Below are positions 55,718-58,302 of a stretch of DNA of 64,000 nt, piece after piece. Origin of the DNA: Ectothiorhodospiraceae bacterium BW-2 (GTDB lineage Bacteria > Pseudomonadota > Gammaproteobacteria > Thiohalomonadales > Thiohalomonadaceae); contig CP032507.1 in NCBI GenBank assembly GCA_008375315.1, forward strand, positions 3,186,071-3,250,070, written 5' to 3'. A program made the translations under genes and the position numbers. Every line of letters starts with the position of its first letter. The first letter of the stretch is position 1. The notes under the pieces were generated by a model. That model worked only from the letters and a program-made list of their open reading frames with translations, did not search any database and was not told where the DNA came from.

Positions 55718-57112
55718 CTACCCTCCCGACTGCTGTCGCTGCTGCCACGGTGCTAAAGAGCGCACCGCCGGCCAGATAGGATTGTGAATCGTCAGTACTA
55801 GCTGCTTAGCCAACTCGACCATACCGCTATAGCCGGCATAGCCAAACTCACGCTCCTGATTAATATCTAAAAAGGGGATTCGCGCCTTTAGGGCGGTGTA
55901 CATATTGCGCCCCCCAGCGATTAAGACATCGACCTGCTGCGCTTTAATAAGATCGATTAGCGCTCTAGGGTTGCCATCTTCGATCATCACCGCCTCTTCG
56001 CCCATCAGCTCCCGAATTCGCGCCTTATCCTCTTCGGTCGATTTTTTGGTGCCGGTAGCGACCACCGTCATGCCGAGATCCTGTAGTGCGGCGATGACCG
56101 ACCACGACTTCACCCCGCCGGTGTAGAGGAGGACTCGTCTCCCCTGTAGCCGCTCTCGCCACGGCTGTAGCTCGGCATCGATTGTGGCCTCCTCCCTCGC
56201 AATTAGCGCCTCGGTGCGTTGCGTTAGATCGGGATCACCAATCAGGCGGGCAAAGTCGCGTAGCGCCTGCGAGACATCGCCAACGCCATAGAAACTCCCT
56301 TCAAACCAAGGGGTCTTAAATGCCTGTTGCAGTTTGCGGGCGACATTAATCATCGCTTTAGAGCAGACCATCATATTGGCCTCAGAGCGGTGCATCGTCT
56401 GCACTTCACGGTAGCGGGCATCACCGGAGAGGGTGCAGAGAACTCTAAGCCCTAGCTCATCGAGTAGCGGTAAGACATTCCATAGCTCGCCGGCGATATT
56501 ATATTCACCAATGAGTGCGATATCGTGAACCGTTATCCCCTCGCGCTCGCTCCCTTTAGGTAGCGGATCGGGCTCACGGGTACCGCAGACATACTTCACC
56601 ATCGTCTCACCGGCGATGCGGTTACCTAAATTTTTAGTGCCATAAAAACCGGCACAATCGACCGGCACCACTGGGGTGTTCCAGCGCTCGGCAGCCGCCT
56701 TACAGACCGCTTCGATATCGTCGCCGACAAGCGCTGGGACACAGGTGTTATAGACAAACACCGCCGCAGGATGGTAGCTCTCAATCGCCTGCTTAATCGA
56801 GTGGAACAGCCGCTTCTCGCCCCGCCCCATAATCACATCCTGTTCGGTTAGGTCAGTGGTCATGCCGATACGGTAGAGGTGCGGACCGCTAGAGCGGGTG
56901 CCTCGGTTATCCCAAGAGCTACCGGCGCAGGCGATGGAGCCGTGGACAATGTGAGCCACATCGGCTATCGGCAGCAGCGCAATCTGCGCTCCATCAAAGG
57001 CGCATCCGCCAGCGGTCGCCCCCGGTTTGGGGCGAGCACACCCCGATTTCGATTTATTATTGTGGGAGCAGGCCGGTTCATCCAGCAGTTCAGCAATCTG
57101 TTTTTGTCGCAT
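55718..57112 (-). CDS. nifE: nitrogenase cofactor scaffold protein NifE
   Basis: A 464-aa NifD paralogue: [79 protein letters not shown] and [12 protein letters not shown]. With NifN it holds the FeMo-cofactor precursor. It is the first gene of nifENX-DUF269-DUF683-fdxB, preceded by a sigma-54 promoter and a NifA site. Confidence 0.97.
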
Positions 57113-57155
57113 AGAGGCTACTCTCCAGAGTTAAAGTGACAACTGCCCTAGAACG

Positions 57156-57173
57156 AAGCACAAAGGGTGCCAA
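57156..57173 (-). promoter_or_regulatory. sigma-54 (-24/-12) promoter of nifE
   Basis: On the minus strand TTGGCACCCTTTGTGCTT matches the sigma-54 consensus, with the invariant GG and GC exactly ten bases apart (GG at 57171-57170, GC at 57159-57158). The predicted start of transcription is near 57146, 34 bases before the nifE ATG. Confidence 0.88.
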
Positions 57174-57223
57174 GAGTCTATTTTTTTAAAAGTCAGGTAG
57201 TTAGAGGTAGAGGCAGCAGCGAT

Positions 57224-57239
57224 TGTAGCAAAGGGAACA
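57224..57239 (-). promoter_or_regulatory. NifA upstream activator site (TGT-N10-ACA)
   Basis: TGT-TCCCTTTGCT-ACA on the minus strand is a perfect TGT-N10-ACA, centred about 85 bases upstream of the predicted nifE transcription start, within the normal range for NifA. Its distal end overlaps the MITE target duplication by two bases. Confidence 0.82.
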
Positions 57240-57245
57240 ATTTGT

Positions 57246-57337
57246 GTAACCGTTCACTCTCCCTCCTTAATCTCCCTCTCCCGGCGGGAGAGGGTTGGGG
57301 TGAGGGGTAAAATTTAGCGGGGAGAGTGAACGGTTAC
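57246..57337. mobile_element. 92-bp MITE with 18-bp terminal inverted repeats
   Basis: The perfect inverted ends GTAACCGTTCACTCTCCC (57246-57263) and its complement (57320-57337) are flanked by an exact 8-bp duplication CAATTTGT (57238-57245 and 57338-57345). Inside is a second palindrome, CCCTCTCCC-GGC-GGGAGAGGG (57274-57294), followed by TTGGGGTGAGGGG. It has no coding capacity. The structure fits a non-autonomous transposon; the parent IS is not in the window. Confidence 0.88.
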
Positions 57338-57354
57338 CAATTTGTTTTGCCCCC

Positions 57355-58302
57355 TCAACAGCTATACGGCTCCTCCATCCAGTCGCGCAAAATCACCAAA
57401 TCGCGCTCTGGAATATAGGCATACTCTCCGGCATGATCCTCTAAAACCTGCTCAATTAACGAGCTAGGCTCAATGTGGCTTAGCTGTAGGGCAAAATACC
57501 AGCTAAAGGGGTGGCCAAGCTGGTAGTCTATCTGGTGTAGCGCGTTAGCTAACTCGCTACCTTTAAGAGTCTGGCAACGGTTAAGACTCTCTTTAGAGAG
57601 TGCTCTGGCCGGCTGTGGTCTAGCAGCGGAGAAAGAGCCTTGCGCCTCTCCCCCATCGTGCAGTACCACTACCCAAAAATCACTAAAGTGGCCCACATCA
57701 CGACCACTGCACCGATCCCAATCGCTAAATAGGCGCTGCAACGGGGGGATCTCGCCGGTATTAAAACGCTCATCCGCCGACAATAGCCCGCGAATCGGCG
57801 TTAAACGCCGAAAACGGAAACACCCCTCCCCTAACGGTTCCGGTTCTAAATGGGGAAAGTCGAGTGGATCAATGAGCTCCTCCACCGTGTCGGGTAGCCA
57901 GTCGGGATCTAGTAGCGGTCTATCGAGTACCTGCTGTAGCTGCTCAATCTCTAGCTGTAGAAACTCTTCCGCCCTCTCCCCCACAACGGCATTGAGATAG
58001 TAGCTCTGTCCGCGCCATTTGGTGACAAAGTAACCCGCATCTAGGTAGCGCTCCAGAAATAGCTCTAGGTTATCGTCGCTTATCTCCTGTTCGAGCCACT
58101 GCCGTAGGCCGGCTGCAACCGGTCGATACCCCCTATCGACCACCCCGCCGAGACGGTACCACTCCCCCCGACAAGAGATATATTTGAAGGTTCTGTGCGG
58201 TAGGTGGTCATTGAGCTGTGCTACCAACGGTTCGATGCCCGCCTCCACCGAGTGAGCCTCACAAAGGGCGACCACCATCTCAAGCTCGTTAATAGTCTCC
58301 AC
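57355..58302 (-). CDS. nif-region protein of unknown function, 315 aa
   Basis: A soluble acidic protein with many aromatic residues, for example FKYISCRGEWYRLGGVVDRGYRPVAAGLRQWLEQEI, YFVTKWRGQSYYLNAVVGERAEEFL, HFSDFWVVVLHDGGE and LGHPFSWYFALQLSHIEPSSLIEQVLEDH. The ATG overlaps the LRV gene stop by one base, so the two are coupled, and it ends the nifHDKT block. I do not recognise a family. Presumed accessory to nitrogenase by position only. Confidence 0.75.
   Translation of the reverse strand: METINELEMVVALCEAHSVEAGIEPLVAQLNDHLPHRTFKYISCRGEWYRLGGVVDRGYRPVAAGLRQWLEQEISDDNLELFLERYLDAGYFVTKWRGQSYYLNAVVGERAEEFLQLEIEQLQQVLDRPLLDPDWLPDTVEELIDPLDFPHLEPEPLGEGCFRFRRLTPIRGLLSADERFNTGEIPPLQRLFSDWDRCSGRDVGHFSDFWVVVLHDGGEAQGSFSAARPQPARALSKESLNRCQTLKGSELANALHQIDYQLGHPFSWYFALQLSHIEPSSLIEQVLEDHAGEYAYIPERDLVILRDWMEEPYSC

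Follow-up and report, generated by a model that had tools for sequence, protein, structure and literature searches.

The window analysed here, that is, the whole stretch of 64,000 nucleotides (G000:C1:3186071-3250070), is part of the single 4.07-Mb contig of the Ectothiorhodospiraceae bacterium BW-2 genome. It carries nifE on the minus strand, and a 92-bp element, MITE-A, lies upstream of this gene next to the NifA activator site. The features of the region are as follows, in window positions (TSD, target site duplication; ORF, open reading frame).

55718..57112, minus strand: nifE (TIGR01283, 701.8 bits)
57155..57172, minus strand: sigma-54-type -24/-12 box of nifE, TGGCACCCTTTGTGCTTC, of the TGGC...TGC type
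57222..57250, minus strand: weak sigma-70-like match GTTACA-17-TACAAT with TG before the second hexamer; first hexamer contributed by the MITE end
57224..57239, minus strand: NifA upstream activator site of nifE (TGT-N10-ACA), TGTAGCAAAGGGAACA; intact, with equivalents in eight relatives
57238..57245, no strand: TSD copy CAATTTGT on the NifA-site side, overlapping the NifA site by 2 bases
57246..57337, plus strand: MITE-A, predicted non-autonomous IS66-type element; 92 bp, with genome copies and 8-bp TSDs
57246..57263, plus strand: left terminal inverted repeat GTAACCGTTCACTCTCCC, from sequence and genome matches
57274..57307, plus strand: core, triplex-type motif CCCTCTCCC-GGC-GGGAGAGGG-TT-GGGGTGAGGGG, a motif class as in PMC4666352
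57320..57337, minus strand: right terminal inverted repeat GGGAGAGTGAACGGTTAC, perfect complement of the left
57338..57345, no strand: distal TSD copy CAATTTGT, an exact 8-bp duplicate
57355..58302, minus strand: 315-aa ORF upstream of nifE, without Pfam or NCBIfam match

The first-pass annotation of this DNA had described an element of 92 bp whose inverted ends match perfectly over 18 bp, flanked by an 8-bp duplication, and this anatomy proved exact, with CAATTTGT present on both sides (8 of 8 bases). The element has no coding capacity and folds strongly (z of -8.2 as DNA; -57.2 kcal/mol and z of -9.2 as RNA with the TSDs). Within the window, its ends had two matches with up to three mismatches, both at this element, versus 0.05 expected. 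The genome-wide search for the ends, which had been proposed as a check, gave 45 matches at the same threshold in the whole 4.07 Mb (23 forward, 22 reverse), versus 6 (3 on each strand) for the reversed-pattern control. Rfam gave four matches, each to a microRNA family and at no more than 25.1 bits, versus gathering thresholds of 52 to 90; we took these as hairpin artefacts.

Position of the element in the nifE control region

Six bases separate the NifA site from the element, and 51 bases separate the site from the sigma-54-type box, close to the distance of about 50 given previously. The earlier statement that the insertion had just missed the NifA site also held, as the site is intact and the proximal TSD overlaps it by two bases. 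The element had further been placed between the nifE promoter and the end of a nifHDKT block; it does lie upstream of the promoter, but the adjacent gene is the 315-aa ORF and not nifT. The stop codon of this ORF is found 9 bp past the distal TSD, and behind the ORF lie genes for an LRV-FeS protein, a DUF6129 protein and a NifX/NifY-like protein that scored just below the TIGR02663 (nifX) cut-off.

The nifE promoter was read with what we take to be the consensus forms of NifA and sigma-54 sites. TGT-N10-ACA occurred five times in the window, versus 7.6 expected, and is at chance level on its own; the NifA site is credible because eight other genomes of the same family have both this site and a sigma-54-type TGGC...TGC box at nifE. 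We sought nifE in 56 genomes and found it in 11, BW-2 included, which gave 12 upstream regions to read. The pair of site and box was present in 9 of the 12; it was not found upstream of nifE in G051, in G032 or at the second G001 copy. Start to start, site and box are 67 bp apart in BW-2 and 60 bp apart in each of G004, G001, G012, G019, G018 and G008. Two overlapping NifA-type sites occur in G009 (78 and 73 bp), and G006 has one at 78 bp and a second at 113 bp. In the 11 nifE regions of relatives, 400 bp were examined for paired MITE ends (278 bp in G012), and no such pair was present. The relatives included no second genome of the BW-2 genus.

Seen from the promoter, MITE-A lies beyond the NifA site, outside the NifA-promoter interval, and therefore cannot change the spacing between site and promoter. 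This position bears on the earlier proposal that the element may insulate nifE or alter NifA/IHF looping; a long hairpin could block read-through from the upstream nif genes, or the bulk of the element could affect looping. The very stable RNA fold and the location, with a stop codon on one side and the NifA site on the other, would suit such a role. However, a search for a terminator-like site in MITE-A called none, and the interval that the element leaves alone already ranges from 60 to 78 bp among the relatives. A scan for IHF sites in BW-2 and the relatives gave best matches of 10 to 12 of 13, too weak to use. The location outside the interval and the missing terminator call ruled out looping or insulation as the leading idea, and we regard it as very improbable.

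A second regulatory reading is that the insertion created a hybrid sigma-70 promoter, in which GTTACA of the MITE end would serve as the -35 hexamer, 17 bp from an extended -10 element (TGcTACAAT) inside the NifA site, and would drive NifA-independent transcription of nifEN. Among 18 MITE-end junctions (nine copies, both ends) this one ranked first, with 9 of 12 positions plus the TG before the -10 and a runner-up at 8 of 12; promoters of Correia elements and promoter-like sequences of MITEAba12 and others are reported in PMC10969869. Set against this, the single match in the region compares with a shuffle mean of 0.5 (standard deviation, 0.8), and the predicted -35 agrees at only 4 of 6 positions, so that we consider a hybrid promoter improbable. 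With the NifA-promoter interval untouched, no terminator called and one promoter match at chance level, the effect of the insertion on nifE is most likely none or slight; we infer that regulation of nifE is unaffected, and as far as nif control is concerned this is an ordinary MITE landing.

Genome copies and the link to IS66

Copies of MITE-A in the BW-2 genome were collected by DNA search and read out with their flanks, and TSDs were scored by script. Six 92-bp copies, including that at nifE, were identical and two were 99% identical; among these eight, the TSD matched at 8 of 8 bases in seven and at 7 of 8 in one. Over 13 distinct sites, eight had 8/8, one had 7/8 and four had at most 5/8, and a TSD of at least 7/8 has a chance of 0.0004 per site at even base composition. 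Older copies were 90 to 96% identical. The four sites lacking a TSD were such diverged copies (90 to 96%), yet one copy at 95% retained 8/8. Identical sequence together with perfect TSDs points to recent movement.

Among the nine copies whose TSD scored at least 7/8, four interrupt ORFs; once the target sites are restored, these ORFs measure 372, 679, 572 and 461 aa. One more copy lies across an ORF of 111 aa, which was given no weight. Profile scans of the un-joined pieces placed one copy in ureC, where it falls between model positions 260 and 265 of NF009686 (urease alpha), one just before the part of UrtA covered by TIGR03407 (5' end of urtA) and one within a CDP-glucose 4,6-dehydratase-like gene; the interrupted 679-aa ORF had no match in the scan. 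Since four of nine TSD-bearing copies lie in ORFs, insertion is not aimed at regulatory sites, and the copy by nifE, which belongs to a scattered set, seems to have come to lie there incidentally.

The urtA and ureC copies are 8 kb apart (G000:C1:2639042-2639133 and 2647209-2647300) and are 99% and 100% identical to the nifE copy; urea uptake and urease were probably lost through these two insertions, to judge by the interrupted reading frames. Nitrogen genes are touched by three of the nine TSD-bearing copies (urtA, ureC and nifE), possibly by chance. In G000:C1:855703-857735, whole and truncated copies of MITE-A share common flanks and lack TSDs; two whole copies are separated by 497 bp, and pieces of the MITE form part of tandem units of 113 and 126 bp.

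Ends beginning with GTAA and TSDs of 8 bp are what we take to be the marks of IS66, whose single-ORF group (tnpC only) bears the name ISBst12. These marks are borne out by two IS66 entries with 8-bp duplications in PMC3281130 and by the BW-2 and Methylotuvimicrobium elements described below. The BW-2 genome held 21 matches to IS66 transposases, and 20 loci were scanned for ends. One IS66-family element (G000:C1:2240864-2244501) had a left end, GTAACCGTTCAGTCCCCC, identical to that of MITE-A at 16 of 18 positions, a right end whose first 11 bases are common with MITE-A, and a flanking 8-bp TSD, TACGAAAC; an insertion sequence with matching ends and 8-bp duplications is what the first-pass annotation had suggested looking for. 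Its TnpC is in two halves, which match positions 1-257 and 297-384 of NF033517 and are separated by an IS3-type element with an integrase core; a search for the points where this element enters the IS66 copy returned none. A second IS66 copy, at 672951, matched over 1264 bp at 99.3% and then ended (truncated). Both such sequences found in the genome are broken, no intact matching transposase was found in BW-2, and a TnpC search at E 1e-40 gave no match in the 19 relatives searched besides it, G004 and G012 included. An unbroken named relative is present on a plasmid of Methylotuvimicrobium alcaliphilum 20Z (1676 bp, one annotated ORF, ends GTAATCGTTTAGCCCCC, TSD GTCGAGCT, 36% protein identity).

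MITE-A has an 8-bp TSD, GTAA ends and ends in common with a TnpC-coding IS66 element, and these features class it as the non-autonomous derivative of an IS66-family insertion sequence of the single-ORF kind. Its earlier identification as a MITE was also borne out: it has inverted ends with TSDs, many dispersed, similar and noncoding copies and a related insertion sequence with similar ends and an 8-bp TSD. Since both insertion sequence copies in BW-2 are broken and neither G004 nor G012 yielded a TnpC, the driver of MITE-A is a putative one, and we infer mobilization in trans by an IS66 TnpC. According to this model, a TnpC-type transposase would act in trans on the GTAACCGTTCA... ends. The element would have inserted between the gene before nifE and the NifA site of nifE, with duplication of 8 bp. 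The duplicated target would have included two bases of the NifA site, so that the site stayed whole, and the interval between site and promoter was left untouched.

Two vehicles for MITE-A were rejected. Viral contigs contained no exact match of the MITE-A end and none of the paired-end pattern. Plasmid records gave 97 matches, none covering more than 80% of the query; the best 20 of the 97 covered 46 to 65%, mostly of the core.

The triplex motif and its carriers

The triplex motif (TM) is abundant in more than 260 genomes, has been linked to instability and is of unclear origin (Holder et al. 2015, PMC4666352). The same paper states that E. coli copies are always intergenic and that transposase or integrase remnants were never found around the sites. 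At positions 57274-57307, MITE-A has a hairpin of a C-rich strand and GGGAGAGGG followed by a third, G-rich strand, as in Table 1 of PMC4666352. The core thus matches the intrastrand triplex motif, an assignment made by sequence, with folding computed for the hairpin.

The 26 TM loci that we classified in the BW-2 genome comprise the 24 sites matching the pattern exactly and two sites with one mismatch; a third site with one mismatch (an all-G variant) was dropped, as were 12 with two mismatches, a number at control level (control, 9). Miniature elements of two end types contained 24 of the 26, 18 of them type A and 6 type B, truncated ones included. Both MITE-A ends were present at 15 loci, three carried truncated MITE-A (one of them, L160, counted on a 98% match over 59 bp and not on an end), four had both MITE-B ends, two had one MITE-B end and two were free.

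MITE-B has ends GGCCTTGTTCATCGTTTCGTCA, and 8-bp TSDs (CAATGGCG and GTATTTAA) were present at two of the four both-ended TM-bearing loci; the other two (L237 and L240) were without TSD. An 1868-bp IS-like element with 22-bp ends GGCCTTGTTCATCGTTTCGTCA occurs at G000:C1:172701-174568, with the 8-bp TSD CAGTTGCG, and at 362734-364601, with none. Its product, 583 aa long, has a DUF6399 (PF19936) domain, which suggests that DUF6399 proteins may be transposases; a literature search on DUF6399/PF19936 among open-licence papers found no paper. A further sequence, GGCCTTGTTCATCGTTTCGCCA, had 44 forward and 44 reverse matches in BW-2 (up to three mismatches). Ends of this type bound several miniature elements with differing cores (113, 114-116 and 158 bp), and the cores of the 113-bp and 114-116-bp elements are purine-rich and triplex-like.

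In the relative G004, all 27 TM copies had at least one MITE-A (IS66-type) end and 24 had both; these 24 elements were 89 to 94 bp long, with a TSD of 8/8 in 14 and of 7/8 in 7. All 15 TM copies read in G012, of 86 counted, had an IS66-type end: six had both ends, six had the other end off the contig and three had one end, and the TSD was at least 7/8 in three of the six both-ended elements. One miniature element at G012:C99:8703-9102 seems to be nested in another of a different subfamily. The random control for IS66-type ends gave 181 of 20,000, an inflated value because the sampled loci contain MITEs. Two other TM-rich genomes behaved differently. IS66-type ends were found at none of the 21 TM copies read in G064 (of 24) and at none of the 21 read in G066 (of 46), the latter a sample picked by hand, mostly from longer contigs; an earlier, partly overlapping set of 9 also gave none. 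In G066 (L349-L366), TM occurs in mosaics with GTTCCCACGC hairpins and GGTTAATTGTTAATGG runs and no IS66-type ends.

The earlier suggestion that the element holds a clue to how such motifs spread is therefore borne out for BW-2, G004 and G012, where TM lies in MITEs, but not for G064 and G066. These data suggest that the IS66-type MITE is the vehicle multiplying TM in the three former genomes, and in this family TM copies would track MITE transposition. Carriage by MITEs is a local route and not a universal one, and TM also spreads otherwise; a general MITE origin of TM was rejected, as the TM copies read in G064 and G066 were free of IS66-type ends. Alternatively, TM could itself be the mobile unit and merely have landed inside MITEs, which would not be its vehicle even here. 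The units read in G064 and G066, standing alone or in mosaics without IS66-type ends, and the two free copies in BW-2 would agree with this. In G004, however, 24 of 27 copies are both-ended, 21 of these 24 have a TSD of at least 7/8, and independent landings are unlikely to yield near-identical units of 89 to 94 bp; we consider a self-mobile TM unlikely, with original capture by landing inside a MITE possible. Taken as a whole, the reading that we hold to be highly probable is that of a recently transposed non-autonomous IS66-type MITE, with a TM core multiplied by the MITE and no or slight effect on nifE.

Other cores between the same ends and comparison with known systems

The exact 18-bp end was found at 13 stretches in 84,980 species genomes, versus about seven expected by chance by our own estimate. 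Six of the 13 had a second end within 150 bp (two to four mismatches), including stretches in a Desulfobacterales MAG (two), Desulfococcaceae HSG9 and Candidatus Methylumidiphilus. A search of 11 genomes for paired ends, by an 11-bp pattern (controls, 0), found 13 elements in the Desulfobacterales MAG (G385), one in a Thiotrichales MAG (G386), three in HSG9 (G387) and 14 in Candidatus Methylumidiphilus (G392). Among scored sites, the TSD was 8/8 at 5 of 6 in G385, 3 of 6 in G392, 0 of 3 in G387 (one at 7/8) and 0 of 2 in G386 (both at 6/8). In an even class sample, exact 11-bp paired ends at 82 to 112 bp occurred in 2 of 369 genomes, BW-2 included, and a wide occurrence of the exact ends was rejected; in the other genome (G347) the core is unrelated and folds weakly, and the element lacks a TSD. 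Two elements of G392 (L222 and L229) have a flanking repeat offset by one base on each side (a 7-bp repeat plus one base), which perhaps reflects variant cleavage.

Cores were compared by local alignment, one core per genome, and fell into three unrelated multi-copy groups: the triplex motif (BW-2, G004 and G012), a GCGGGAAGC double hairpin (G385 and G387) and a GGGAGCGCGGGC hairpin (G392). The core of the only G386 element was unrelated and folded weakly (z of -0.9). Of the 18 copies of the G392 core, 16 were bounded by these ends, and a TSD of at least 7/8 flanked 13 of these 16. Ends of the form GTAACCGTTCA...C-tract thus bound TM in the BW-2 family, a GCGGGAAGCTGTCCCGC-type double hairpin in the Desulfobacterales MAG and HSG9, and a GGGAGCGCGGGC-type hairpin in Methylumidiphilus. 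We tentatively propose that single-ORF IS66 ends could be a chassis for exchangeable fold-back repeats, with a hairpin core perhaps aiding transposition. If true, capture and amplification by the chassis would explain the spread of several dispersed intergenic hairpin families, TM among them.

The interest of these observations is that, in one bacterial family, a triplex motif is tied to a transposable element that can be defined. The TM survey (PMC4666352) left origin and spread open and reported no mobility genes at E. coli sites; when TM is carried as the core of an element that generates TSDs, its gain, loss and spread become traceable as transposition events, and the other hairpins carried by the same ends elsewhere add to this interest. 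A term search of the main text of the MITE review PMC10969869 returned no mention of IS66 or triplex. Among the listed matches in the open-licence PMC literature, no paper described an IS66-derived MITE or TM inside MITEs, which is weak evidence of absence.

The nifE promoter of BW-2 resembles the NifA-sigma-54 nifE promoters of its relatives, which share TGT-N10-ACA at 60 to 78 bp upstream of a TGGC...TGC box, and differs from them in having a MITE next to the activator site, on its distal side. Like MITE-A, elements of the single-ORF IS66 group have ends beginning with GTAA and an 8-bp TSD; they encode a TnpC with a DDE_Tnp_IS66 domain, whereas MITE-A is 92 bp long and noncoding. Like Correia, QMITE and MITEAba12, which according to PMC10969869 sometimes have promoter activity, MITE-A is short, with inverted ends, flanking repeats and many copies. 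Its core has the same layout as the TM, boxC or PIT motif of PMC4666352 (a C-rich strand, GGGAGAGGG and GGG.TGAGGG); unlike the E. coli TM described there, the motif here forms the core of elements flanked by TSDs, and some of these elements lie within genes.
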